Shown here one piece after another: positions 3,268 to 64,000 of a stretch of 64,000 bases of DNA. The position numbers were made by a program, and so were the translations under genes. Numbering within the stretch: position 1 is the stretch's first letter; the number at the start of each line of letters is the position of its first letter. The notes beneath the pieces were generated by a model. The model had not been told where the DNA came from. It worked only from the letters and a program-made list of their open reading frames with translations, and did not search any database. This DNA comes from Flavihumibacter rivuli (GTDB lineage Bacteria; Bacteroidota; Bacteroidia; Chitinophagales; Chitinophagaceae): assembly GCF_018595685.2 (NCBI RefSeq), contig NZ_CP092334.1, positions 586,001 through 650,000 of the forward strand, in the 5' to 3' direction.

Positions 3268-3681
3268 TCAGGAACTGAAAGCAAGGTCAGCAACGGTCTT
3301 GTTTTCCAGGATAGCCAGGCTGGCATCACGAACCTCAGCCATTACATGGTTCAGGCCACAAGTCACCTCATCGCAGTCCTCACATTTTTTATAGAAGTTC
3401 ATACTAACGCAGGGGAGAAGGGCAATGGGTCCATCCAGCAACCGCATTACTGTAGATAGTTTGATCTGGTTGGGTGGAATGGCGAAGAAATAACCGCCAC
3501 CCTTACCTTTCTTGCTTTCCAGCAAGCCGGCCTTGCGCAGGTCCAGCAGGATGCTTTCCAGGAACTTGAGCGGTATATTCTTTTTCTCGGCGATATCGGA
3601 GATCAATACCGGTCCGGATGCTGCATGCTGGGCAAGATAAACAAGGGCCTTAAACCCATACTGGCTCTTTTTCGATAACAT
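3268..3681 (-). CDS. Rrf2 family transcriptional regulator
   Basis: A 137-residue regulator with an N-terminal winged helix (MLSKKSQYGFKALVYLA) and the GGGYF wing typical of Rrf2 proteins. Four cysteines (Cys91, Cys100, Cys103, Cys108) lie where IscR/NsrR-type members bind an iron-sulfur cluster, so it may sense iron-sulfur status, nitric oxide or redox state. The exact effector is unknown. It is the first gene of a two-gene unit with the acylphosphatase. Confidence 0.88.
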   Translation of the reverse strand: MLSKKSQYGFKALVYLAQHAASGPVLISDIAEKKNIPLKFLESILLDLRKAGLLESKKGKGGGYFFAIPPNQIKLSTVMRLLDGPIALLPCVSMNFYKKCEDCDEVTCGLNHVMAEVRDASLAILENKTVADLAFSS

Positions 3682-51452: not shown

Positions 51453-51713
51453 TGTCCGATCGGTGTACAGATGCAGGGCGGGCTTTGCTTTCAATGAAGC
51501 CCCATGCGTGCTGCTGTTGCTGGTAGCCCCTTTAATGGATATTATACAACCATTTGCCTTAACAGGCTATCCTGAGCGTGAAACGGTTGCCACTAGTCCA
51601 AGCCTCATTGATTACTTTTAACTCTAGCCGGCCAGGCGGACTTTAAGTATGCCTGCCTTCAATTAGCGAGCGTCGACCCTACTCAGCATTATTGGTTATT
51701 GCGATTGGAGGGG
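51453..51713 (-). repeat. Leader-like module, copy 1
   Basis: About 260 bases with no coding sequence. It resembles 61995-62255, with a nearly identical core from TATCCTGAGCG to ACTCAGCA. Both lie on the same side of an attC-like site (51715 and 62256), at the 5' side of the following unit on the minus strand. Confidence 0.75.
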
Positions 51714-51714
51714 G

Positions 51715-51847
51715 CCATAACGGCCAGGGCTTTGCGTTCTTTGTGCTATTCAGGGATCCACTGCCTAGCCCTGGATTAAATATGAGTAGAAATCCTGCCG
51801 AACAGATTTAGGCGTCCGCCACCATGGCGCAAAACCCGCTGTTAGTT
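51715..51847 (-). repeat. attC-like site A
   Basis: Left core CATAAC at 51715-51721 with arm GGCCAGGGCTTTGCG. Right core GTTAGTT at 51841-51847 with arm GCGCAAAACCCGC. The arms pair imperfectly, as in integron attC sites. Confidence 0.72.
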
Positions 51848-51918
51848 GCATTTGATGATTGCTGTTGCATTATTAATCCTAATATTCTACCAGATTTAAT
51901 ACAATCTATAATAGAAAT

Positions 51919-52293
51919 TTACTGCATCCAGCATACTTCATTATCTTTCAGAGCAATTTGATATATTTTTTCACCATCAAAAGCACTAATTTGGTATTTC
52001 AGATCCTTCATCAAAACTGCTTGCTTGTCTGCAATTAACAATAAATTCCTTTTTTACAATTAGCTCGCCATTATCTCCATATACCGAAATAATGGTGCTT
52101 TTCTATGATCGTTTAAAGAATGAATAACATACCAATTTCCTCCATCAACTCCTCCGCTCCAGAAAGCTGAATCTGTGACGCCAGCAGGTTTCAAATTAAT
52201 AGTTGAATTTTGTGAAATATTTGAACAAGCTAGACCAGATATTAATATTATCATAGTAAATAAATGGCTCATTGTATCACATCTGGCGTCCAT
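51919..52293 (-). pseudogene. Frameshifted small lipoprotein
   Basis: The N-terminal part (lipobox SGLAC, MSHLFTMIILISGLAC) reads well. The frame then changes twice: near HSLNDHRKAP and again at an AAGCAAGC duplication. Joining the pieces gives a coherent C-terminus, GDNGELIVKKEFIVNCRQA then LKYQISAFDGEKIYQ, ending CWMQ at 51919. This looks like a degraded gene. Function unknown. Confidence 0.65.
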
Positions 52294-52337
52294 TAGCTTT
52301 CTGCTTTGAAGATATTCTGTATTGCTGTTGGCATCCG

Positions 52338-52907
52338 TCATCGCCTATAGTCTAACTGCGCATCAAAGCGTCCGTCTTGTATTCTAATACTGTCATTCAA
52401 ATTGTTAGGGTTGTAGAGAATTCCTGCGAATGTTCCAGCAACAACATTGTTGATGGTATCAAAGCGGGTAATGGTTAAAGTGCATTTATTGGGCAGGTTG
52501 TTTTTGTATTCCCTGTACCACTGGTTATAGCGGCTTCCAATGAAAGCCATTCCTCTTCCAAGGTTATTATCAATTTGATACGTTCCTGTTGTTGTTATGT
52601 TTGTAGTGGAAATGTAAAATGACTGGTCTGTCGTATCAGAAGTTACCGTATAGTCTGCGCTTACACCAAAGTCAAAGTCTCCATTTGGCTGTTTATACAA
52701 ATATGCAGTCACTTTATTATCCTTGCAACCGGCTATTGTGCAGCGTTTACCGTAGTTTGTCCACACTTTACCATCCAGTAGAAAACCAAGCGTATTTTGC
52801 CCAGTTTCGGTGGCTGGTGGTAAAGTCAAATCTGGAGCTTTCTCCTTCCTGCAGGAAAGAAATGGCAACATCAGGAAAAGTATCGTGAACCTATACTCTT
52901 GTATCAT
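52338..52907 (-). CDS. DUF6252-like lipoprotein
   Basis: A 189-residue lipoprotein with lipobox LSC (MLPFLSC). The mature part reads PATETGQNTLGFLLDGKVWTN and ends in the conserved-looking RIQDGRFDAQLDY segment. It resembles the DUF6252 family. The start at 52907 fits the signal peptide. It is the neighbour of the decayed lipoprotein, sharing an ATGA overlap at 52338. Confidence 0.68.
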   Translation of the reverse strand: MIQEYRFTILFLMLPFLSCRKEKAPDLTLPPATETGQNTLGFLLDGKVWTNYGKRCTIAGCKDNKVTAYLYKQPNGDFDFGVSADYTVTSDTTDQSFYISTTNITTTGTYQIDNNLGRGMAFIGSRYNQWYREYKNNLPNKCTLTITRFDTINNVVAGTFAGILYNPNNLNDSIRIQDGRFDAQLDYRR

Positions 52908-52927
52908 AGGTGTGCTTTTTAGATTGC

Positions 52928-53060
52928 TGCCAACGTCCATCGGTTTGCCGCTGGACGGCTATTTGGATTACGACGGCTTAGTCTTTGTTCTGTTGTTTTT
53001 CAAAAATAATCAGTTTAGTACTTACACGTCAGCCCGTATTTTAGCACACCGCTGTTCTGC
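52928..53060 (-). repeat. attC-like site B (degenerate)
   Basis: Left core TGCCAAC at 52928-52934 with arm GTCCATCGGTTTGC. Right core GTTCTGC at 53054-53060 with arm GCACACCGC. Pairing is weaker than at other sites. Confidence 0.5.
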
Positions 53061-53067
53061 GTTCGTT

Positions 53068-53607
53068 TTATTCGCCCAAAGTTATGATTGTCCTGTAAAT
53101 CAATGTATTGTCGTTTGTATAGAAGTTCCCTTGCTGACCACCTGAATTGTCACGGAGGAAAATATACCTTAATTGTTTCGGCGGTTCAACTGTCTGGTCT
53201 TTCAAAGCTACAATGACTTGTCCTTTTAAAATAAGCGCTCTTGCAATAGAGGTTTCTAGAATGCCGCTTAGGGTCTTATCATTAACTGCGGATAAATCCC
53301 GAAATACAAGCGTGTCCCTGCTTTGATTCTTCATAACTCCCGCAAGATCTTCCCACGTTTGACTGGTCAAATAGCCTTGGTGCTCAATTTGCTTTTTTAT
53401 GGCTTTTTCCAGTTCTGAATATATGTCACGGCTGCTAAATTTTAGTGTATCGCGATTTTCAAGTACAAAAAGAACGTGAGGAGCTGGAGCCCCGGTCAAC
53501 ACGATGAGTTTCTCTTTCCTTGATTTGATAAAGTTGGGTTTTTGTGCGGTCTTGCAGCTAAACAAAGCAATCAACGAAAGGAATAGGTAAGCAGTTGGAT
53601 ATTTCAT
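53068..53607 (-). CDS. Hypothetical lipoprotein (cassette gene)
   Basis: A 179-residue lipoprotein with lipobox FSC (ALFSC). The mature region alternates helix and strand and ends NTLIYRTIITLGE. No domain is recognised. Its stop is 8 bases from site B, as is usual for integron cassettes. Confidence 0.65.
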   Translation of the reverse strand: MKYPTAYLFLSLIALFSCKTAQKPNFIKSRKEKLIVLTGAPAPHVLFVLENRDTLKFSSRDIYSELEKAIKKQIEHQGYLTSQTWEDLAGVMKNQSRDTLVFRDLSAVNDKTLSGILETSIARALILKGQVIVALKDQTVEPPKQLRYIFLRDNSGGQQGNFYTNDNTLIYRTIITLGE

Positions 53608-53737
53608 GAAACATTCTGTAAAACGTTTATCTGCTTTGCGATTGAAAACTCCCCTTATTCGTCACATTCGAAAATATAAATTTCCAATTGTAGTGGTACC
53701 TCAATGCCATATTTGACCACTGCATCAGGGTAATATC

Positions 53738-54841
53738 TCAAGGATCAATAGTATAATCTTTCACTTTTCCTGCAAGGGGCCTGATGTCATTTACCAGTGT
53801 AATTAAAAACCTTCCCGGTTCTTCGATCATGGGGAAGTGCGCACTTCTCTCATAGGTAATAAATTTTTTTGAGGGTGCTTTCAGGTTATCAAAGTATATT
53901 TTGGCTTTAGCATAGGGTGTATATAAGTCATATCTGCCCATAAGTATAAATATGGGCACTTTAAAGTTCATTGGAGAAGTTGCTCTTTGCATATCATCTA
54001 CCAGAAATCTTGAACCAAAAGCCATACTCTGGAACTGAAATTTTAAATCATTTTCATTGTAATCCGGAGATAGTTGTGGCAAGGTATAATACAATTCGAG
54101 GGAAGGTTTTCCGTACCATCCTCCGTTAAATATGCTGGCCCATTTTCTGGTAACAAGCATTTTTGTTATGGGTGTTTCTTCATCTATATGAGGATAAGGC
54201 TGAATGCTTTTCAGTTCTTCTAAAGCTGCGGTATTATTATATTTTTTTGCCAGTTCAAGCAATCTGCTATATAGATAATCTTCATTGTTGGCATGATATA
54301 CTTGTCCTACTCCAATATAAGCGTATATTTTTTCGGGAATTATTGTAGAGATATGGGTGCCAATCATTGTTCCCCATGAAAGCCCAAGTATAAATATCTT
54401 ATCCTTTTTGTAACGCTTACACAGCCAGTTTACCAGTTCAACGCCATCTTTAATAATAGTCTCGGCTCCTAATTCATTACGAGCTTTAACTGTATCTGCT
54501 GTTGCCCAGTTTTTACCTGTGACTCTCTGATCCCACTGCACTACAGTAAAGTAATCTTCCCAGCTACTCTGGAATGTCCAGCTTATGGGCATAATAGGAC
54601 TTGCAGGGCCACCATGAATAAACAATAGTATAGGGTTATCACGATTACGTCCTTTTATAGAAATCCACTGTTTCTCTTTATTTAATTCAATCTGTTGTAG
54701 TGTATCAATACCTTCAGGTGTATGGATTTTCCTGAGATTAGTTAACATCTGAACCGCCTGCTCCCTTGTCGATATTAAATTTTGGGCAGATATAGAAATG
54801 CTCATCAGGATTAAAAGTGAAATTAATGAGAATTTATACAT
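53738..54841 (-). CDS. Secreted alpha/beta hydrolase (proline iminopeptidase-like)
   Basis: A 367-residue exported hydrolase. It has a signal peptide (about 1-20), oxyanion motif IHGGPASP, WDQRVTG motif and nucleophile elbow GLSWGTMIG. The acid/His region is near the GRYDLY and ERSAHFPM segments. It resembles S33-family aminopeptidases. No attC-like site was found on either side. Confidence 0.82.
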   Translation of the reverse strand: MYKFSLISLLILMSISISAQNLISTREQAVQMLTNLRKIHTPEGIDTLQQIELNKEKQWISIKGRNRDNPILLFIHGGPASPIMPISWTFQSSWEDYFTVVQWDQRVTGKNWATADTVKARNELGAETIIKDGVELVNWLCKRYKKDKIFILGLSWGTMIGTHISTIIPEKIYAYIGVGQVYHANNEDYLYSRLLELAKKYNNTAALEELKSIQPYPHIDEETPITKMLVTRKWASIFNGGWYGKPSLELYYTLPQLSPDYNENDLKFQFQSMAFGSRFLVDDMQRATSPMNFKVPIFILMGRYDLYTPYAKAKIYFDNLKAPSKKFITYERSAHFPMIEEPGRFLITLVNDIRPLAGKVKDYTIDP

Positions 54842-55006
54842 ACAATAGTATTTTGGTATTAATTCATTAGGACTCGCAATTTAAATTCACCTTTTAACCT
54901 TTTCTAGCCTATGTTGGAGTTCGCCTGCGGCCTTTGTTGTTTTTTTAACCAACAAAACTGCTCGCTTTCATTTTACTAAGTCCCAAATTGTACCCTGGCA
55001 TTTAGC

Positions 55007-55240
55007 TTATCCCCGTGGGGAATCTTTGTTTGTAGTCTGTCGTCCCAGTTTTTTGAAACAATAACTTTTCCAGGCCGAATTACTCCCATCGAGAAGGGTT
55101 TCTGCAGGGCTGGAATTCATTGCTCGTCCATCCCGGAATCGCTGCTGATTAAAGATATAAAAGTAGAGGGTGATAAACAAAAGCCCAACAATGTTAGCCC
55201 AGCCGAGATGAAGCTCAAAAGTGATAGAATGACCATTGCT
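55007..55240 (-). pseudogene. Possible decayed membrane-protein fragment
   Basis: An open frame of 77 codons without a good start. It reads FELHLGWANIVGLLFITLYF (a membrane segment) and then SSPAETLLDGSNSAWKSYCF. This looks like the C-terminal part of a lost gene. The rest of the gap (54842-55325) shows nothing. Confidence 0.35.
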
Positions 55241-55325
55241 TCAATGACCTGCCAATCTTGCAGAAAACCCAATTTTGTGTGCAGGCTTATATTCAATCAA
55301 AAAATAGTCTTACATCAATTATATC

Positions 55326-55988
55326 TTAGTTTATGAATTCGATACGTCCACAGGGGATTATCAATGAAGGTTGAGAGTCTATGTTAATCCTGTAAAATAG
55401 ATTTTTTCCTTTTAAAACAAGTGCTGAACGTGCTGTCCCTTCTGATTCATGAAATAGAAATATTGTATTATAATAATACTCCTCCCTGGGCTTTAATGTT
55501 ATTTCTAATTGGCTTGGTTTCTTGAATCCATTATCTAATATGGATTTAATATTAGTCACTCCAAAGTCAAATAGTTCTAGCTTCTCAAGCGTCATCGTGT
55601 CTGGGGGAATTAACGCTTTTATAAAGGCATCGGGAGAAGTTACAGTCGGAAATGAATCAATAGGGAATTCCACTGTTAGTTTTAATGGAGTTGTAGATTC
55701 GTTAACTATACTTGTCCAGAATATCCTATATCCATCTATTTGTCCTGAACTATTGTATGCTCCGCCCCTCGGGTAACTGTTATACACTCTTATAACTCTT
55801 CCTAAAGAATCTTCGTATCTTTCTTCAGTATGAACCCATTTCTTTTTTGAAGGAGATTGCTTAATTAGCGGAATAGAATCTATGTTTTTCAAATTATCTT
55901 GACTGCTTACTTGATTGATGATTTCACTTTTACCATTTTGGGAGTTTGTACATCCTATAAAAATCAATATATATAAGCAAAATCGCAT
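55326..55988 (-). CDS. Hypothetical lipoprotein
   Basis: A 220-residue lipoprotein (lipobox FIGC near residue 13). The mature part contains VNESTTPLKLTVEFPIDSFP and a C-terminal IIPCGRIEFIN. No domain is recognised. No attC-like site is recognised beside it. Confidence 0.65.
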   Translation of the reverse strand: MRFCLYILIFIGCTNSQNGKSEIINQVSSQDNLKNIDSIPLIKQSPSKKKWVHTEERYEDSLGRVIRVYNSYPRGGAYNSSGQIDGYRIFWTSIVNESTTPLKLTVEFPIDSFPTVTSPDAFIKALIPPDTMTLEKLELFDFGVTNIKSILDNGFKKPSQLEITLKPREEYYYNTIFLFHESEGTARSALVLKGKNLFYRINIDSQPSLIIPCGRIEFIN

Positions 55989-56229
55989 TTTGTCTGATTT
56001 AAGTTAGTAGAGTGCCCATAAAGCTTGCACACAATGTTTGAGTATATGGGAAGGCAGGCAATTCATAGATTGTCCAGCCTGGTACAAATGCCCATTTGAA
56101 AATGTGTTGATGAAGTTATGAACTAAAGCTGAAAATTGAATGTTGAGCCCAAACCGCTGCTGATGCTTGCACATAGCTGATGTTTCAGTTTCCAGCCCTG
56201 CATTTGCATATACATTTGATGTATGCTGC

Positions 56230-57957
56230 TTATCGCAGTTTGTCAAATCGATGATTCATTAATCGGGGATGGGAAACAGTAAAATGAGTCACATTTCCTT
56301 GTTCATCGTAATGAAAACGAACCCAGCTTTCACTCGAATATTCCCCATAATCTGTAGACAGTCTAAACTCACCATCTGTCCACGGCTCCAATATTTTATC
56401 AGCAATGGTCGGTCGCTTTACCACCAATTCATCTCTTTCGTTTAATACCAAAGTCAAATAAAAGTCAAGATGGGCACTGTAGTATTTACCGGTAAGCTTA
56501 TGCAGTTCTTTGCTCACCGGCTTTTGAATGGCAGACTTTGTTTTTTCCATTTGAATGGTGTCACCATCATATGTATACAATACCAAGCGTTGGGCTGAAT
56601 CAGAGTTGGACTGATAAAATATAAATACATCAGGGAATTCTGGGTCTCTGAATTTGTTTTTTGACAGTTGAACCAAATCCAAGGTGTCATTCTCACTGTA
56701 TACTACCCGAAGTACACCTTTGCCTGCAACAATTGAAGTAAACCGTTTACGTGGCATAAAGCTTTGGAATGTGAGAGGCACTTGCCATTGATATAGGCCT
56801 GAAAGCAATTCTAATTGCTGTTGATTAATAGTTGCCTTCTCCACGGTTACATCAGGCATTACTGGAGGTTTTGTTTCAATCTTAAGACATGCTGACAGCA
56901 CATTCTTCATCAAATTCCATCTTGGCTGAAACTGGTTGCTTACCATAATCACAGTTAGCTCCTCTTCGGGCACACGAGCAAGGTATGGATATTCACTCAC
57001 GCCCATATGAACGGTAGCTGTATAAGTTCCGAGTATTTTTTCATTATGCCCAAACACATAATTTTTTCCGGGTAATACTGGAATAACTCGGGCATTTTGT
57101 TTTAGGCGTTTTATTGCAGTAGATATAAATGATTTAGGATCGGTATAAGCGGAAGCCCATTTCTCCAGGTCGTTGGCTGACGTGAGTACATAATAATTTC
57201 CGCCGGGCGATGTTTTATCCTTCAGCCATAATTTGAATGTATTATTCTCGCCAACAGTATACGAAAATGCATGATTGGGAATCACATCTTCCCGATCGTT
57301 GTGAATACGGCTATCTTTCATATCCAGTGGTTGAAAAACCCTGCGCTTCATATAATCCGACAGATTTTCACCAGATGCTTTTTCAAGAATCAACCGTAGC
57401 AAACCAAAGTCTGAATTAGAATACATATACCCTTTGCTGGGTTCAACAGAAGGCGTTGGTTGATTATAGAGAAATTGAAGGAACTGAGATTTGTCGATAC
57501 GGTTGGTCATACTCGCCTGGGTAAGTGCAAGAGTTGCCCACTCATCAGCAAAGCCGCTACTATGGTTCAATAAATCTTGAATAGTTATATTACTGCTCCA
57601 CTGCGGAAGTTGCGGAAAATATTCTTGTACTTTATCATTCAATTGTAGTAGCCCATCACTTTCCATCAGCGCTGCGGCTATTGAAATAAATTCCCTTCCT
57701 TCTGAATATGGCATCCTTACAAGTGTCTTATGTTCAAAAGGAACGTTGAACTCAATACTAGCCATTCCATATGCCTTTTTAGCAATCACTTTTCCCTTCT
57801 GTATAACCGTAACTGCTATACCTGGCGTATTTGCTTTGAATCCGGAAAAGATACTATCTAGTTTGATATCAATCTGATTTTTTATGGTAGATTGTCCAAA
57901 GCAAGAATAGTCCAGTGTAAAGGAAAGAATCCAAACTATAAGAAAATTAGATTTCAT
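56230..57957 (-). CDS. Beta-lactamase-like serine hydrolase with altered SxxK
   Basis: A 575-residue exported protein with a class C-like serine hydrolase domain (about 30-360) and a C-terminal beta domain (about 380-560). The expected SxxK motif reads S85-E-G-R88 in MPYSEGREF, so the general-base Lys is replaced. The YxN motif is intact (YSN at 179-181), and an HxG-like HMG is present. Such a change may abolish hydrolase activity, leaving binding. The start at 57957 is used because an earlier ATG at 57987 lies within attC site C. Function not established. Confidence 0.78.
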   Translation of the reverse strand: MKSNFLIVWILSFTLDYSCFGQSTIKNQIDIKLDSIFSGFKANTPGIAVTVIQKGKVIAKKAYGMASIEFNVPFEHKTLVRMPYSEGREFISIAAALMESDGLLQLNDKVQEYFPQLPQWSSNITIQDLLNHSSGFADEWATLALTQASMTNRIDKSQFLQFLYNQPTPSVEPSKGYMYSNSDFGLLRLILEKASGENLSDYMKRRVFQPLDMKDSRIHNDREDVIPNHAFSYTVGENNTFKLWLKDKTSPGGNYYVLTSANDLEKWASAYTDPKSFISTAIKRLKQNARVIPVLPGKNYVFGHNEKILGTYTATVHMGVSEYPYLARVPEEELTVIMVSNQFQPRWNLMKNVLSACLKIETKPPVMPDVTVEKATINQQQLELLSGLYQWQVPLTFQSFMPRKRFTSIVAGKGVLRVVYSENDTLDLVQLSKNKFRDPEFPDVFIFYQSNSDSAQRLVLYTYDGDTIQMEKTKSAIQKPVSKELHKLTGKYYSAHLDFYLTLVLNERDELVVKRPTIADKILEPWTDGEFRLSTDYGEYSSESWVRFHYDEQGNVTHFTVSHPRLMNHRFDKLR

Positions 57958-57981
57958 AAACAAAGTGATGATAATAATGGG

Positions 57982-58114
57982 ATACAACGGCCGGTGTTTT
58001 GCGTTCTTTGCGGTTTCATTGATCCTCAGTCCAACTCTGGTTTATAGATGATTAGAATTCTTGGCGATCATGATTTAAGCGTCCGCCGCTATGATTCAAA
58101 ACACAGTGTTGTGC
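57982..58114 (-). repeat. attC-like site C
   Basis: Left core ATACAAC at 57982-57988 with arm GGCCGGTGTTTTGCG. Right core GTTGTGC at 58108-58114 with arm CAAAACACAGT. The arms pair well (CAAAACAC / GTGTTTTG). Confidence 0.82.
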
Positions 58115-58122
58115 ATTCGGCT

Positions 58123-58833
58123 TTAGTTCAGATATATTTTTTCAGACCAATTTAAGCCTTCGGGTAATTCCATATTCGAGAATTCGATATGAATTACACG
58201 TCGCTGTTTTTTATTCGTTGTTCTTCCTGAACTGTGCAAAAGAAGGGGCTTCATAAGCATAATTCCACCTTTTAGGACATTACAAGATACTACGCTTTCA
58301 GTCGTCCAGTTAGTGCTTTCTGGTCTGTAGATACTTTTTAAATGTGAGCCAGGGATGACCTTTAAGGCGCCATTTTCTTCATCTGTGTTGTCAAGGTGGA
58401 TTCTGACAGTAACGATATTTTGCAGGATTTCAGTAGGAGGTTGGACTGCGAATTGATTTTGTTTTACCGTCCAAAATGAAAAACCGGGAAGTTCAACCTT
58501 TTTGTCGACCGAAATTGTAAGGTCTTGGTGGTAAGAAACGTACCAGTTCGAGGATGCAGGTTTATCAAAGTAAATACTCTTTACAGCAAAGTAATTCTTG
58601 CTAAACAGCTCCGTTAGGATCTTTTTTAGATTATCATTAAGTATAATGCTTAAAGTTGAAGGAACTTCTTTGAGAAACTGCCTGATTGCAAAGAGGTCGG
58701 ATGATTTTCTAAAGGTGTCTTTGTCGGTGTTTGCTTGTTTTATTTGGTTGATAATTTTATCAACTTCCTCCGAAGTATAAATATTATCTATCGTAATAAA
58801 ACCATTATTCAGGAATTGATCTTTTTCTATCAT
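58123..58833 (-). CDS. Phytanoyl-CoA dioxygenase family protein
   Basis: A 236-residue protein of the PhyH family of Fe(II)/2-oxoglutarate oxygenases. The HxD motif is in VSYHQDLTIS, and the distal His and Arg region is in LLLHSSGRTTNKKQRRVIH. The N-terminus (MIEKDQFLNNGFITIDNIYT) is typical. The substrate is unknown. It is a single gene between sites C and D. Confidence 0.85.
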   Translation of the reverse strand: MIEKDQFLNNGFITIDNIYTSEEVDKIINQIKQANTDKDTFRKSSDLFAIRQFLKEVPSTLSIILNDNLKKILTELFSKNYFAVKSIYFDKPASSNWYVSYHQDLTISVDKKVELPGFSFWTVKQNQFAVQPPTEILQNIVTVRIHLDNTDEENGALKVIPGSHLKSIYRPESTNWTTESVVSCNVLKGGIMLMKPLLLHSSGRTTNKKQRRVIHIEFSNMELPEGLNWSEKIYLN

Positions 58834-58856
58834 AGATGCTGCTGGTTTAAGCTGAC

Positions 58857-59054
58857 GCATAACGTTGACGGCTTGCTGCTGTGCTGGTGTTTTTTAATTG
58901 TCAGCCTGGCAAGTGAAGTCAATAGAATAACCAAAGTACAAAATATATTCTGTTGTTCAATAGCGTTCGGTTACGCTTGAAGTGCTGCTGATAAGCGAAC
59001 AGAAGTTGATGCTGCGAATTGTCAGCCAGCATAGCAGCAAATCGATTGTTGTAG
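58857..59054 (-). repeat. attC-like site D (long)
   Basis: Left core GCATAAC (58857-58863) with arm GTTGACGGCTTGCTGCTGTG. Right core GTTGTAG (59048-59054) with arm CATAGCAGCAAATCGAT. Arms pair over more than 20 positions. The site is longer than most because of a large central region. Confidence 0.78.
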
Positions 59055-59064
59055 GCAGCTTTCG

Positions 59065-59532
59065 TCATTCGTAACAATGATTTTTGGCAAGGCACGGTTC
59101 TGCATAGCATATAATTTCAGCATCTTCAAGTTCTGTCAGGATTTGCCTGATTGGCGAATAATCTTTAGCAGCAGGAATTTCCATTGCAAAGTATTGGTCA
59201 TTCAGCTTTTCTGATATGCAGCCTAAGTTTTTGAAAGCGTCACGAATGGAATTTATGTCCTTTGATGTGTCTAGTAGTATTACCTGTACTGTTGAATTGC
59301 CTGAATGTTCAACTGTCTCACGGTAGGTTAGTCGTTCTTCGGTTTCGTCATACTCCGCAAATACAATGTCGTCTGATGCCACAGGAGCATAAAAAGGTAT
59401 GCTGTCCAGTTTGTAGTGTCCTTTCTCCGCGTCTACTGTGTTTGCCCACATTGTTTCAACTGTCCACTCGTCTAAAACATTACTAAAAAACCGAAATACG
59501 ATTTTTACGGATGTGTCGTTTGTCTGAGTCAT
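59065..59532 (-). CDS. DUF4265 domain protein (cassette gene)
   Basis: A 155-residue cytoplasmic protein with the DUF4265 pattern (PFYAPVASDDIVFAEYDE near the middle and VIL/LGCISEKLN after it). The family has no known function. Gene ends 11 bases from site D and begins 25 bases from site E, a compact single-gene cassette. Confidence 0.82.
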   Translation of the reverse strand: MTQTNDTSVKIVFRFFSNVLDEWTVETMWANTVDAEKGHYKLDSIPFYAPVASDDIVFAEYDETEERLTYRETVEHSGNSTVQVILLDTSKDINSIRDAFKNLGCISEKLNDQYFAMEIPAAKDYSPIRQILTELEDAEIICYAEPCLAKNHCYE

Positions 59533-59556
59533 TTTTAGGGTATCTCTCTAAGTTGC

Positions 59557-59691
59557 CTACAACGCCAGGGGATTTGTGTCGGGGCGGACCCCGTGTTACG
59601 CTGGCTGAGGATTTATGCTGTTGTCAAATATAGTTCCGAATGTATAGCCTTTGTTCGAATGCCCGCCATGGCACCAATACCCCTGTTATGT
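59557..59691 (-). repeat. attC-like site E
   Basis: Left core CTACAAC, then GCCAGGGGATTTGTGTC. Right core GTTATGT, preceded by GGCACCAATACCCCT. One of five near-identical sites of this type in the array. Confidence 0.82.
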
Positions 59692-60204
59692 GCCTGTGTT
59701 TGTTTCAATCTCCTTTGCATAATATTTTTCTGATAGCATATATCCGACTAAGTAATCCTTAGGTATTGTTTTGTTATTGATAGTAACTGGCTGAGCTTTT
59801 TTATATTGTTTTCTAGTTTTACGGAATTCTCTAATAAAATTACGTCGTTATTCGGGTGGTATAAAAAAGATGAAGTGGTCAAGTTTAATTATGTCAAAGT
59901 ATTGCTTTTGCTTATTTGATTTTAAAACAACAGTACTGTAATTTTTAATTTCCCACACTCCACTGTCAGCAACTAGGTTTGACAGGCAGTCAGTACTCAA
60001 TTTGCTAAAATTCATATTGGAGTCGAGTATTAAGTTGTAGCCGCCAAAACCGTCGCCTAAATGGATGGTACCCACTATGTCTTTAAAAGCAATTGATGCA
60101 TAGGTCGGATATGACTCATTTTTGTTATTTATTTTCTTTTTTATCACTTGGCCATAAGCAAGTATTGGAAATATTAACACTATCACTATAAGACCCTTTT
60201 TCAT
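59686..60204 (-). pseudogene. Exported hypothetical with in-frame stop
   Basis: The first 118 residues (59848-60204) have a signal peptide (ILAYGQ). A TAA at 59848-59850 is followed in the same frame by RRNFIREFRKTRKQYKKA and further codons until TAA 59686-59688. Since the frame stays open and the tail is protein-like, a nonsense mutation is the simplest reading. The final stop overlaps the GTTATG core of site E. Confidence 0.65.
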
Positions 60205-60227
60205 GCTGGTTTGTTCATATTACTGGC

Positions 60228-60362
60228 ACATAACGCCAGGGGATTGGTGCCGGGTCGGACCCCGTGTTACCCTGGCTGATGATTTATGCTGCTGTCAAAT
60301 ATAGTTCCGAATGTTGAGCCTTTATTCGAAAGCCCGCCATGGCACCAATACCCCTGTTAGTA
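60228..60362 (-). repeat. attC-like site F
   Basis: Left core ACATAAC then GCCAGGGGATTGGTGCC. Right core GTTAGTA (60356-60362) preceded by GGCACCAATACCCCT. Near-copy of sites E, G, H and K. Confidence 0.85.
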
Positions 60363-60920
60363 GCCGGTTATTGTCTCAAGCATATAAGATCTAAATGTGC
60401 CCAAATCTACTTCTTTGAATAACGCTCTTTCTGGATAACTATGTCCAAACAGCCCAACATAAAATGGTATTTTACTTTGAGTCGGAGCCCCAATATCAGG
60501 AGATTTATGCTCTTTAATTTTTAGATACCCTCGATTTACATAGATACTAAATCCTGAATAAGCATAGTCATAAGTAGAGCCACATTTTTTACATGTCCAA
60601 ATTTGCGAATTATCCTCTTCTTTGTTATAGCCTTCCGTGATATCGAAGTAAGGTCGTGAAAGTTGTATGAATCCTTGTGTCTCACTACTATAAAATGATT
60701 TTCCATATTCAACGCAGTCAAGGCTTATAATTTGCCTGTACCGAGGAAAGGCGCATTGGCAGGAAATATCATTGTAAAAAGTTATTATCTCCTCAATACA
60801 TTTCCAGAGCTTTTCTGCGTTGTCTTGAATAGTTGGTAATGTTTCAACAGAAGCAGTCCTTTGCGTTTGTTTAGTTATTGTTGGTTTATGCCCAAACATT
60901 TTGTGAAGAATGTTCATCAT
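60357..60920 (-). CDS. Hypothetical CxxC protein (cassette gene)
   Basis: A 187-residue cytoplasmic protein. It contains a Cys-x-x-Cys (IWTCKKCGSTYDYAYSGFSIYVNRGYL). Similar segments occur in other Bacteroidota hypotheticals. Its stop lies in the core of site F. The function is unknown; a zinc-ribbon role is possible. Confidence 0.7.
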   Translation of the reverse strand: MMNILHKMFGHKPTITKQTQRTASVETLPTIQDNAEKLWKCIEEIITFYNDISCQCAFPRYRQIISLDCVEYGKSFYSSETQGFIQLSRPYFDITEGYNKEEDNSQIWTCKKCGSTYDYAYSGFSIYVNRGYLKIKEHKSPDIGAPTQSKIPFYVGLFGHSYPERALFKEVDLGTFRSYMLETITGY

Positions 60921-60928
60921 GATATGGC

Positions 60929-61063
60929 TACTAACGCCAGGGGATTGGTGCCGGGGCGGTCACCGTGTTACCCTGGCTGATGATTTATGCTGTTGTCAAA
61001 TATTGTTCCGAATGCTGAGCTTTTGATAGAAAGGCCGCCATGGCACCAATACCCCTGTTATGT
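60929..61063 (-). repeat. attC-like site G
   Basis: Left core TACTAAC, then GCCAGGGGATTGGTGCC. Right core GTTATGT (61057-61063) after GGCACCAATACCCCT. Near-copy of sites E, F, H and K. Confidence 0.85.
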
Positions 61064-61663
61064 GCCGCTATTCTTTCGCTTTCGGTCAAACAATACTTTA
61101 GTAGAGTCCCAATTCACTTTGTCTGGATAATAGAACTTTTGCTTTCTTTTATAGTCAAGTACAACGTTCTCTTCAAAAGTCGTTTTTCTCACCAAATAAG
61201 CAATGTCGTTTAATGTGTCGGTCAAAATGTTCATTAGTGGTATAAGACTTTTTGACTTAATTGTATCTGTCAGGCCAATTACTGTTACACTTCTAAAAGC
61301 CGCATCTGCTTTTAGCACGTTTTGTTCAACAAAGCTTTTAACACCGTCCGCTGGTATACTTATTATTTTGTCAGGATTTAGATTAATAAAAATCGGAGCA
61401 TTACTGTCAAAGTCAATAACTCTTATTGGCTTTTTATCTCTGTCGTAGAAATGCTGATAAAAATAAATTGCGCCAGTTGAATCAAAAATAAAATTGAAGC
61501 ATCCGTAATAAGCATAAGGACTTAACGGCGGTGGCGGCGGCTCTTTTGGGTCTGTAGCCTTGCCTATCTCTGGTATCGCTAAACTTATGTATTTATCGTT
61601 TGTCCTGCATGAACATCCCAAACAAATTATTAGGCATAAAAGCAATATTCTTTCAACTGTCAT
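61058..61663 (-). CDS. Hypothetical lipoprotein (cassette gene)
   Basis: A 201-residue lipoprotein (lipobox around CLGCSC). It has a Pro-rich stretch (KEPPPPPLSP) and a mixed alpha/beta remainder. Its TAA (61058-61060) lies inside the GTTA of site G. No domain recognised. Confidence 0.7.
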   Translation of the reverse strand: MTVERILLLCLIICLGCSCRTNDKYISLAIPEIGKATDPKEPPPPPLSPYAYYGCFNFIFDSTGAIYFYQHFYDRDKKPIRVIDFDSNAPIFINLNPDKIISIPADGVKSFVEQNVLKADAAFRSVTVIGLTDTIKSKSLIPLMNILTDTLNDIAYLVRKTTFEENVVLDYKRKQKFYYPDKVNWDSTKVLFDRKRKNSGT

Positions 61664-61705
61664 TTTTATATAGGATGCACAGTTAGTAGGTTTCCATATA
61701 GTGGC

Positions 61706-61840
61706 ACATAACGCCAGGGGATTGGTGCCGGGGCGGACCCCGTTTTACCCTGGCTGATGATTTATACTGATGTTATATATAGTTCCGAATGCTGAGCCTT
61801 TGATCGAAAGCCCGCCTTAGCACCAATACCCCTGTTATAG
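61706..61840 (-). repeat. attC-like site H
   Basis: Left core ACATAAC then GCCAGGGGATTGGTGCC. Right core GTTATAG (61834-61840) after AGCACCAATACCCCT. Near-copy of E, F, G and K. Confidence 0.84.
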
Positions 61841-61947
61841 GCCGCAATCTCCCGAAAGGTTAAGGGATATTTATTGCTGTCCGGCCCATGACTATTCTGT
61901 CCAACTTTGTTAGAATTGTTGTCTGGGGTAGGGTATAGGCGGCTCAT
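61762..61947 (-). CDS. Small ORF reading into site H
   Basis: A 61-residue ORF beginning MSRLYPTPDNNSNKVG. Its middle (HGPDSNKYPLTFREIAAYNRG) resembles the sequence at the right edge of the window, and the last 20 residues are translated from attC. A purine-rich AGGATAAAAGT precedes the ATG. It may be a real small protein or a fragment. Confidence 0.4.
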   Translation of the reverse strand: MSRLYPTPDNNSNKVGQNSHGPDSNKYPLTFREIAAYNRGIGAKAGFRSKAQHSELYITSV

Positions 61948-61994
61948 TACTTTTATCCTTTTATTTGTTTCGGTTATGATTACCGAGCTACTCT

Positions 61995-62255
61995 GATTGA
62001 TCAGGGCTCTGACGCTGGGGGTGGCCGTGCTTGCACTGAAGCCCGATCCGTGTTACTTCTGCTGGAAGTCCCTCTGATGGTTATTTTAAAACCTGGACCT
62101 TTACCAGACTATCCTGAGCGGAAAACTGTCACCACTAGTCCAAGCCTCATTAGTTATTTTTAACTCTTGCCGGCCAGCCTGACCTAAAGTATGCCTGCCT
62201 TCACTTAGCGAGCTTCGACCTTACTCAGCAAACCAGGTTGGTAAAATTGGGTGGC
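61995..62255 (-). repeat. Leader-like module, copy 2
   Basis: Similar to 51453-51713 over about 260 bases, with the same TATCCTGAGCG...ACTCAGCA core. It has no coding sequence and sits just after site I on the minus strand. A shared promoter or a remnant of a mobile unit are possible explanations. Confidence 0.75.
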
Positions 62256-62387
62256 CTATAACGTTTTCGGGCTTTGCGTTCGGGCGGGTTTCGGAGCACA
62301 AAACAGTCAACCAGTACTGCACTTGAATAGAAGCACAAAGCTCCAAGTTTGCACGTCACCCCGCCTGACGCAAAACCCGTGTTATGT
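62256..62387 (-). repeat. attC-like site I
   Basis: Left core CTATAAC then GTTTTCGGGCTTTGCGT. Right core GTTATGT (62381-62387) after ACGCAAAACCCGT. Arms pair with few mismatches. Related to sites A and C. Confidence 0.85.
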
Positions 62388-62400
62388 GTAGCCTTTCTTT

Positions 62401-63117
62401 TCATTCTATTGTGTATCTGCTGTAAGGATGAGGAGTTCCGCCAAGTTCAACTTGTAGTTTTTGAAAATAGAATCCCATTCCTCTATTTGGTATCCAGTCG
62501 TAAAACGATGCAATTTCTTTTTCATAACCAGTTTTTTCAACTGCTTTGATGAAATCAGCATATATTCCTGTTATATGTAATGAATCTTGGCTCATTCGAA
62601 TTGTATTTATTAGTCGAATGATTTGGAAATTTTCTTCGTCAGTTATTTCAGCTAGTCTTTTTTTCTTGAGAATTGCTGTTGACTCATTAACCTTTAATTC
62701 AAATTGTTTTTTTGTTAAAGCATTCTTTGAGTCCATATTTGGTTTCTTAAGAATGTCGTAACGCTTCTTACTTATATATTGCCAGTCTTTGTGATTTGGT
62801 GAATAGTCATAAAAATTGTCAAGGTCAATAAGCATTGAATCTTTGTCCAACAGATAGTATTCGTTCAATGTCCCGCTAGTATTTTCAAATCCAGTGATTA
62901 TATGAATTGTGTCTGACTTTATTGTATATTTCCCGGTATAAACTGGGCTTCCAAAATGCCCTGAAGATGTCCTTTTGTAAGTTCCGTCTTTATGAAACTC
63001 ATAAGTCCAAGAAGTCATGGCCCATTGTCCAGAAAATTTTTTATCAAAAGTCTGTCCGTTGACTATGTTAGATATAGTCAATATTAAAAGTGTCGATATA
63101 TTTCGTAGTGTCGTCAT
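62401..63117 (-). CDS. Hypothetical exported protein (cassette gene)
   Basis: A 238-residue protein with a signal peptide (about 1-22, SNIVNGQ). The first part looks lipocalin-like (FSGQWAMTSWTYEFHKDGTY and YTGKYTIKSDTIHI), the second part is helical. No family is assigned. The start at 63117 matches the signal peptide; upstream ATGs fall in site J. It fills the cassette between sites I and J. Confidence 0.7.
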   Translation of the reverse strand: MTTLRNISTLLILTISNIVNGQTFDKKFSGQWAMTSWTYEFHKDGTYKRTSSGHFGSPVYTGKYTIKSDTIHIITGFENTSGTLNEYYLLDKDSMLIDLDNFYDYSPNHKDWQYISKKRYDILKKPNMDSKNALTKKQFELKVNESTAILKKKRLAEITDEENFQIIRLINTIRMSQDSLHITGIYADFIKAVEKTGYEKEIASFYDWIPNRGMGFYFQKLQVELGGTPHPYSRYTIE

Positions 63118-63125
63118 AAGGTTAC

Positions 63126-63322
63126 ACATAACGAAAGCGGCTTGGCGATGTAGCGGCATTTGATAATCGTCAGCCCGTATCCGCTGCTAAATTTATAAAT
63201 AAACATTCATTTTATATTCTATTGCTCGGCGTTATTCTTCGGCTTGAAATTAAGCCGAATAGCGAACAAAAAGATGAGTATATATACGTCGCCCCGCCAT
63301 ATTGCCAAACCGCCTGTTGGCT
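63126..63322 (-). repeat. attC-like site J (long)
   Basis: Left core ACATAAC with arm GAAAGCGGCTTGGCGATG. Right core GTTGGCT (63316-63322) with arm CATATTGCCAAACCGCC. Strong pairing. The central region is longer than in the E-type sites. Confidence 0.82.
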
Positions 63323-63328
63323 GCAGTA

Positions 63329-63805
63329 TTATTGTGCTGCTGCATAAACATGTCCAGCAATAGAAATTGTATCTGAATACGTTTCTGTCCACCGGTGAAG
63401 TACAGATATTTTTACTTTCATAAACCCCTTTAAGTTATCTCCTTTGTCATAAGATGCTTTGTCTAATTTAATACTTGGTTCTATAGCTGTAAATATTAGC
63501 TTTTTGTATGAGCTATCTGTAATCGAAAATAGTTGTTCGAACTGTACGCTTAAGTTTTCTTTGACTTTAAGGATATTCAACTGGTAATTGGAAGATGAAT
63601 CAGTAACTTTCAAAAATAATGAGTCACTTTTCTTTACAGCTTCACACTTGGTTAGCTCTACCTGATTACTGTCGGAGAAATAAATTAAGACGCTTGATTT
63701 AGGGTCGGGGAATTCTCCATAGTTTTTCCTAACATTTTTTTTGTTACTTGTCTCGCAGGAAAATAAAAATAGACAGAATGATATTTTTAAAAATATATGG
63801 TTCAT
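63329..63805 (-). CDS. Hypothetical lipoprotein (cassette gene)
   Basis: A 158-residue lipoprotein (lipobox FLFSC, Cys near residue 16). The mature part is strand-rich and ends SIAGHVYAAAQ. No domain recognised. It lies between sites J and K. The start at 63805 precedes the signal peptide. Confidence 0.65.
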   Translation of the reverse strand: MNHIFLKISFCLFLFSCETSNKKNVRKNYGEFPDPKSSVLIYFSDSNQVELTKCEAVKKSDSLFLKVTDSSSNYQLNILKVKENLSVQFEQLFSITDSSYKKLIFTAIEPSIKLDKASYDKGDNLKGFMKVKISVLHRWTETYSDTISIAGHVYAAAQ

Positions 63806-63814
63806 AATGGTCGC

Positions 63815-63949
63815 AGCCAACGTTAAGGGATTGGTGCCGGGGCGGTCCCCGTGTTACCCTGGCTGGTGATTTATGCTGTTGTCAAATAAAGATCCGAATG
63901 TTGAGCCCTTGATCGAAAGCCCGCCATGGCACCAATACCCCTGTTATAG
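63815..63949 (-). repeat. attC-like site K
   Basis: Left core AGCCAAC then GTTAAGGGATTGGTGCC. Right core GTTATAG (63943-63949) after GGCACCAATACCCCT. It resembles sites E-H. Confidence 0.85.
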
Positions 63950-64000
63950 GCCGCAACCTCCCGATATGCATCTGGATAACTATTGCTAGCCGGCCCATGA
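63871..64000 (-). CDS. C-terminal part of a cassette gene (cut by the window edge)
   Basis: An open frame runs in from the window end and stops inside site K. Its HGPASNSYPDAYREVAAYNRG segment resembles the tail of the small ORF at 61762-61947, and it also continues through attC in the same frame. The gene body is outside the window. Confidence 0.4.
   Translation of the reverse strand, partial: HGPASNSYPDAYREVAAYNRGIGAMAGFRSRAQHSDLYLTTA

Follow-up and report, generated by a model that had tools for sequence, protein, structure and literature searches.

The right-hand part of a 64,000-nt stretch of the Flavihumibacter rivuli genome (hereafter the window; positions 586001-650000 of a 4.30-Mb genome assembled as one contig) carries an array of small genes and hairpin-forming repeats, which most likely is the distal part of an orphan array belonging to an integron-like platform run by an integrase other than IntI; this reading rests on sequence comparison throughout. 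Located by hand, 11 imperfect inverted repeats (sites A to K), each running from AAC to GTT, are interspersed with leftward genes from 51.7 to 64 kb, and they account for all eleven repeats separating same-direction genes that an initial annotation of this DNA had described. The window sites form the distal end of a 28-kb array (genome 637.7-665.8 kb), which continues past position 64000.

We built a covariance model, R1, from 10 of the 11 window sites. R1 recovered the eleventh site, B, which had been left out, at 42.7 bits; it also detected a degenerate site, at 55078-55286, with 28 bits. In the F. rivuli genome (the own genome), R1 gave 64 matches at E-values up to 1, some of which were opposite-strand echoes of the palindromes; they fell mainly at 637.7-665.8, 3379-3405, and 3546-3562 kb, and a few lesser clusters lay near 2885-2888, 2615, and 2418 kb. 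Among 59 genomes of the own species and its relatives, 36 contained R1 sites, the own genome counted. Other searches told us less: a strict inverted-repeat scan recovered too few sites, a loose duplex scan was uninformative (116 window hits, 95 of them in the first 50 kb, with 12-19 hits in 14 kb of shuffled sequence), and Rfam returned one match, far under its gathering score. The cores of attC sites, as quoted in the initial annotation, are RYYYAAC and GTTRRRY; none of the 11 window sites fits the consensus at either end. Among 280 sites with exact AAC and GTT from 17 genomes, RYYYAAC was found in 23, GTTRRRY in 21, and both in 3. From AAC to GTT, 206 of the 280 sites are longer than 165 nt and 69 measure 130 nt or less, against the 57-142 nt given for attC (PMC2727003). 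By core consensus and by length, these sites are not IntI-type attC sites.

The seven nucleotides beside the GTT of a site are complementary to the seven beside the AAC of the following site; the pairing spans the gene rather than the hairpin. In the own genome (58 of 79 R1 matches used), 31 of 51 adjacent pairs matched at 6-7 of the 7 arm positions, 20 of them at all 7, vs 140 of 3192 non-adjacent pairs (33 at all 7), and the two ends of one site matched at 6-7 positions in only 4 of 58 cases. The multi-genome counts drew on 328 of 368 matches, omitting opposite-strand echoes, matches that were short or weak, and the majority of single-site loci, and the pair counts used the 280 exact-core sites; here 175 of 211 adjacent pairs matched at 6-7 positions (119 at 7), vs 5.4% at 6-7 and 1.0% at 7 among 75942 pairs from different loci. 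Mobile hairpins would have related flanks of their own; because the arms pair across the gene instead, the unit is the cassette and not the hairpin. The pairing profile of 182 distinct cassettes, restricted to those whose arms match at 5 or more of the 7 positions, showed 73-98% pairing at positions 1-7, 3% at position 8, 55-76% at positions 9-12 (29-39% in shuffled sequence), and none beyond. Position 8 is a conserved mismatch, in which an A (178 of 182) mostly faces a C. The profile of 176 distinct pairs taken without selection was much the same (68-94% at positions 1-7, 5% at position 8). Most positions use several pair types, which marks the pattern in the arms as covariation rather than sequence conservation; position 5, being almost fixed, is hardly informative in this respect. 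The A after AAC (278 of 280) and the C before GTT (274 of 280) are also near-invariant.

We then cut the cassettes at CG/TT (the slash marks the cut), compared them all against all, and inspected 21 similar pairs at both ends. Most of these pairs were highly identical inside the unit and about a quarter to a half identical outside it, on both sides. Full units shared in this way include one of 719 nt (99.4% identity) between relatives G011 and G005, one of 866 nt (99.8%) between G004 and G005, and one of 837 nt (100%) that occurs in two arrays of the own genome; in addition, window cassette G-H has a 98.7% copy at genome 3556.5-3557.5 kb with different neighbours. The exceptions among the 21 are one pair that keeps its 5' neighbour (c104/c156), one that is rather similar beyond its 5' end (c137/c166), and three that differ much in length. 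That cassette boundaries should hold in relatives had been put forward as a check of the initial annotation, and near-identical units indeed end exactly at CG/TT amid unrelated flanks. The median cassette is 816 nt long (211 cassettes). Genes and sites are codirectional: the gene strand carries the longest frame in 159 of 165 cassettes with well-paired arms. In these 165 the frame starts a median of 27 nt after TT and ends a median of 15 nt before AAC. Sequence comparison thus delimits the units, sets their boundaries in differing surroundings, and reveals covarying arms. With mostly a single codirectional gene plus a hairpin, complementary ends, and exact boundaries in different surroundings, the system would, as judged from these alignments, be an integron in the broad sense.

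A tyrosine recombinase with an additional N-terminal domain heads such arrays in relatives. A profile scan over the named genomes yielded at least 551 loci, and we analyzed the best 80. At 42 of these loci, R1 found 154 sites, all of them downstream on the recombinase strand, and none upstream, in 292 kb of downstream and 684 kb of upstream sequence (154 of 157 R1 matches used; 3 echoes left out). R1 is therefore not a chance finder. The recombinase points the same way as the cassettes, with the array downstream of it. The contig ends within 2 kb downstream at 43 of the 80 loci and within 2 kb upstream at 4, an excess that is expected if a repetitive array follows. We placed the first cassette start by its complementary arm at 39 loci; at 29 of them it is preceded by an attI-like box, YRTVWAT plus 5-7 nt, vs 58 of 11268 control GTTs in the upstream flanks. 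Of the 29 boxes, 26 lie 104-289 nt past the recombinase match, and in some Flavihumibacter loci the box reads TAATTGCGTAAATAAACGC, followed directly by GTT. Recombinase and box hence occupy a fixed position in these alignments: a putative integrase and an attI-like site stand at the array head in relatives, and neither does at the head of the window's own array.

The array recombinases lack the additional patch of integron integrases. The spacing between the KGxKDR and HxLRH motifs is 68 residues in all 19 array recombinases vs 107 in all 12 IntI proteins aligned, and the patch motif is present in all 12 IntI and in none of the 19. The catalytic residues R275, K302, H367, R370, H393, and Y402 are invariant in 36 aligned recombinases. 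In the tree, the 19 array recombinases lie on one side of a branch with a Shimodaira-Hasegawa-like approximate likelihood ratio test value of 97 (IntI, 100); with few, long-branched outgroups and IntI rows that consist of relatives of a single IntI, the trees do not separate loss of the patch from a pre-patch state. The array-head recombinases match the IntI profile TIGR02249 in two pieces, below its cut-off and above the level of Xer proteins. Their best NCBIfam model is NF040815 (XerA/integron integrase; 215 bits, cut-off 220). A structural model of the full protein (mean predicted local distance difference test score [pLDDT] 82, predicted template modeling score 0.49) has XerA and VchIntIA as its best solved structures; the model of the N-terminal domain (pLDDT 87) matched no solved fold at E-values up to 0.001. 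Three other recombinases were observed in these genomes. One, a tyrosine recombinase of 315 residues that lacks the N-terminal domain, is encoded between array sites as though the array itself carried it (L099:6209-7153). In G011, five equal-score hits on contigs C4, C7, C10, C13, and C14 (L105) are 318-residue frames of another small tyrosine recombinase; one of the five adjoins an array site, and the protein perhaps belongs to a mobile element of its own. A patch-bearing IntI (422 bits) occurs on G052:C40 (L116), in a genome of the same order, of another family, and free of R1 sites.

The initial annotation had expected attI and an integrase gene to the right of position 64000, and neither is there. 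The own genome encodes two PF00589 proteins; one passes the XerD model, and the other, encoded beside tuf, is best matched by XerC, below the cut-off. A tblastn search of the own genome with the array recombinase of a relative matched only this pair. A classical IntI, for which a search had been advised, was rejected for the own genome, where no protein exceeds the TIGR02249 cut-off and PF00589 finds only the Xer pair; the array-head recombinases of relatives are patchless as well. No attI-like box was recognized at the head of the window's own array. Since both recombinase and box are absent, the window array is orphaned, and the earlier assignment to a cassette array or a cluster of attC sites lacking an integrase (CALIN) holds in this sense: the array is CALIN-like, with at least 2 sites, no integrase nearby or elsewhere in the genome, and unit boundaries that recur in relatives, while the strict core consensus of an attC CALIN is absent. 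Loss of the recombinase can be followed in a series, from an intact gene in G005 through a shortened frame in G012 to G013, where only a C-terminal remnant precedes an attI-like box, and finally to the own genome, which has no such gene. The cassette present at 100% identity in two arrays suggests that the platform was active recently, and the recombinase may have come from a replicon outside the assembly. A box search over 224 kb of the own genome found three attI-like boxes at other arrays, at 3393271, 3405220, and 3554356 (L019, L020); two further weak scores (15.4 and 13.2) were taken as chance. Each of the three boxes is preceded by a common non-coding block of ~400 bp, 80-86% identical, in which no recombinase remnant was found. 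Several platforms are perhaps served in trans.

In the mechanism that we propose, the mobile unit would run from TT, N7, and A through usually one gene to N7', AAC, A, the hairpin, and a final C and G. The ends of the circular unit would together form one site with an outer stem, an unequal inner loop, and an inner stem, the outer stem comprising GTT plus 7 paired positions, the conserved A-C mismatch, and ~4 more pairs. The patchless recombinase most likely cuts CG/TT of the attI-like box and of the folded cassette site, and such cutting would lead to insertion, excision, and shuffling of cassettes through attI x cassette and cassette x cassette recombination. The array recombinase would thus carry out the recombination, with a folded single strand as its substrate. 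That the fold matters is argued from the covarying arms. In IntI, the extra domain recognizes extrahelical bases and blocks second cleavage (PMC4792948); here, the patch's job could fall to the unequal inner loop, to the fixed mismatch, and to the N-terminal domain, the last of which may replace the patch.

The alternatives to this mechanism were weighed against the same data. An ordinary IntI-type integron could account for the array if the sites were a divergent branch of attC made by an IntI that has since been lost. The sites do have AAC/GTT cores, an inner loop, and the cassette logic in common with attC, the array recombinases match TIGR02249 above the Xer level in two pieces, and a real IntI exists in the same order (G052). 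Yet the TIGR02249 cut-off is passed in only 1 of 59 relatives, the very one without R1 sites, the array recombinase is patchless in 19 of 19 cases and forms its own clade, and with both cores fitting in only 3 of 280 sites and most sites beyond the attC length range, we regard this origin as quite improbable. Nor does it seem probable that the host's XerC and XerD move the cassettes, as they do hairpin-forming CTX phage DNA, with the array recombinase a bystander. XerC and XerD are the sole PF00589 proteins of the very genome in which one cassette sits twice, 100% identical, in different arrays, and XerCD action on a folded phage site has a published precedent (PMC4792948); such a scheme, however, leaves the fixed pre-array position of a special recombinase (154 sites vs 0) without a role, and arrays decay in step with the recombinase gene in the few relatives inspected. 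The hairpins could also be mobile elements in their own right, akin to miniature inverted-repeat transposable elements or repetitive extragenic palindromes and inserted between genes. They are palindromic, intergenic, and repeated, but the complementary arms span the gene and not the hairpin, the shared units start and end at CG/TT with gene and hairpin inside, and the sites have a single polarity relative to the recombinase; stand-alone hairpin elements are extremely improbable and were rejected.

Several observations weigh against an array recombinase that moves these cassettes through folded sites. R1 was trained on ten sites of its own genome, and its E-values are rough; the attI pattern was likewise counted at the very loci from which it had been derived. 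In a sample of 60 sites, fold energies depart only mildly from those of mononucleotide shuffles (mean z -2.15, 47% below -2), with no strand preference. Among the 48 loci with at least 1.2 kb of downstream sequence, 11 have no site. Sites occur without a full-length recombinase in 16 of 59 relatives, and the own genome and G034 are among the richest in sites. Co-occurrence of sites and recombinase across the 59 genomes is moderate (counts of 20, 5, 16, and 18 in classes assigned by hand; Fisher p 0.01). Finally, of 20 further stretches from across the phylum, only 1 (G080) has an array headed by a recombinase that bears the N-terminal domain, the other 19 having none within 10-20 kb.

In its mostly single-gene, codirectional cassettes, the hairpin site after each gene, and its orphan arrays, the system resembles IntI integrons, which are known as spreaders of antibiotic resistance, and CALINs; it also resembles IntI integrons in the cut at G/TT, the complementary cassette ends, and the attI-like site at the array head. 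Unlike IntI integrons, it has a patchless recombinase (68 vs 107 residues between the two motifs) with an extra N-terminal domain, encoded in the same direction as the cassettes, and its sites depart from the core consensus, are mostly longer, and possess a long mismatched outer stem in place of a heptanucleotide box. The array recombinase has the same fold as XerC/XerD and archaeal XerA; unlike it, the Xer proteins, which act on dif sites, have no such N-terminal domain and stand apart in the tree. Treponema integrons, which are described as having intI and are set beside the present system by that description only, share an integrase transcribed towards attI in the cassette direction (PMC3607928). 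Also compared by description only is the integron of Salinibacter ruber M1, found with IntI and attC models and the one complete Bacteroidetes integron that the IntegronFinder 2.0 report names (PMC9024848). Novelty is limited by several reports: Bacteroidota are listed with integrons (PMC8618304) and the Bacteroidetes/Chlorobi group with intI (PMC2426708), intI in cassette direction is known from Treponema (PMC3607928), and a recombinase survey contains an integron-like subgroup in which the catalytic-domain insertion is not fully conserved (PMC8138268). The same survey calls this insertion of integron integrases essential for integron function (PMC8138268), and the taxon-specific attC models, as presented in PMC8352920, do not include Bacteroidota. 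Among the titles and abstracts found in searches of the open-licence literature, a scope outside which preprints and most subscription journals fall, no such system is described.

How the extra domain of IntI and attC sites could evolve without each other was asked in a 2016 paper (PMC4792948). A cassette platform with hairpin sites and a patchless recombinase would make this question directly testable. We tentatively propose, at somewhat less than even confidence, that a second kind of integron, one that needs no IntI patch, exists in Bacteroidota, either of independent Xer-like origin or as a surviving pre-patch state. In it, the role of the patch and the extrahelical bases would be taken by the N-terminal domain together with the outer stem, which is long and mismatched. 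If this is true, the second kind would be a functional intermediate of the sort sought by that chicken-and-egg question.

Sites of this type are widespread. At E-values up to 1e-4, R1 sites were found in 61 of 247 phylum-sampled genomes and 40 of 122 genera, in many families. In 17 of the 20 further stretches (three single-site ones were left out; one family member is among the 17), 36 of 47 adjacent pairs matched at 6-7 of 7 arm positions vs 3.4%. Set against the one complete Bacteroidetes integron named, the 61 of 247 genomes suggest a large cassette pool, which tools based on the patch and the classical cores would probably miss.

The array recombinase was also used to search plasmids, where it matched 25 records, 24 of them from Acinetobacter. 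In the 3 plasmids inspected, tet(X3) directly follows, and is codirectional with, the gene of a patchless recombinase of 221 residues (for example, L265:5052-7151 of the Acinetobacter indicus plasmid NZ_CP041297.1); in the tree, this recombinase falls outside the array-recombinase clade. The tet(X3) gene is preceded by a cassette-like start, GTT-ATGTGCC-A, and followed by GGCTACT-AAC-A and a weak hairpin, which R1 scores at 13 bits (E-value 0.005 for 4 kb); the second core is CTT, and the arms match at 4 of 7 positions. This is no more than a lead: such a platform may at one time have had tet(X3) among its cassettes, and the layout raises the possibility that the Bacteroidota cassette pool fed a resistance gene outward.

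The features of the window array are listed in Table 1. The arms match fully in the six cassettes from D-E to I-J and nearly so in J-K, and they are weaker distally, at 4 of 7 for both A-B and C-D and at 3 and 4 for the steps from B to C via the degenerate site.

Table 1. Sites, genes, and cassettes of the window array (window positions)
Feature	Position	Strand	Remarks
Site A, attC-like hairpin, AAC to GTT	51719-51843	-	Arm towards B decayed, 4/7
Gene between A and B, DUF5025	52338-52940	-	
Site B	52932-53056	-	42.7 bits; outside R1 training set
Gene, no Pfam family	53068-53607	-	
Gene, alpha/beta hydrolase	53738-54841	-	
Degenerate site, broken cores AAA and GAT	55078-55286	-	R1, 28 bits
Gene, no Pfam family	55326-55988	-	
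Gene, PF00144 (Beta-lactamase family serine hydrolase)	56230-57987	-	
Site C	57986-58110	-	By hand and R1
Gene, PhyH dioxygenase family	58123-58860	-	
Site D, long type	58861-59050	-	By hand and R1
Cassette D-E: gene 59065-59532 (DUF4265) and hairpin D	58863-59562	-	Arms 7/7
Site E	59561-59687	-	By hand and R1
Cassette E-F: gene 59848-60204 and hairpin E	59563-60233	-	Arms 7/7
Site F	60232-60358	-	By hand and R1
Cassette F-G: gene 60357-60920 (no Pfam family) and hairpin F	60234-60934	-	Arms 7/7
Site G	60933-61059	-	By hand and R1
Cassette G-H: gene 61058-61663 and hairpin G	60935-61711	-	Arms 7/7
Site H	61710-61836	-	By hand and R1
Cassette H-I: no evident gene; hairpin H	61712-62261	-	Arms 7/7; longest stop-free frame between sites 74 codons
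Site I	62260-62383	-	By hand and R1
Cassette I-J: gene ending at 62401 and hairpin I	62262-63131	-	Arms 7/7
Site J, long type	63130-63318	-	By hand and R1
Cassette J-K: gene ending at 63329 and hairpin J	63132-63820	-	Arms 6/7
Site K	63819-63945	-	By hand and R1; array runs on rightwards

The cassette of ~420 nt that has no evident gene recurs in three copies within this one array, at 61837-62259 of the window and at genome 649955-650359 and 650505-650911; its longest stop-free frame is 72-74 codons, and a fragment of it lies at 51476-51688, at the distal end of the array.

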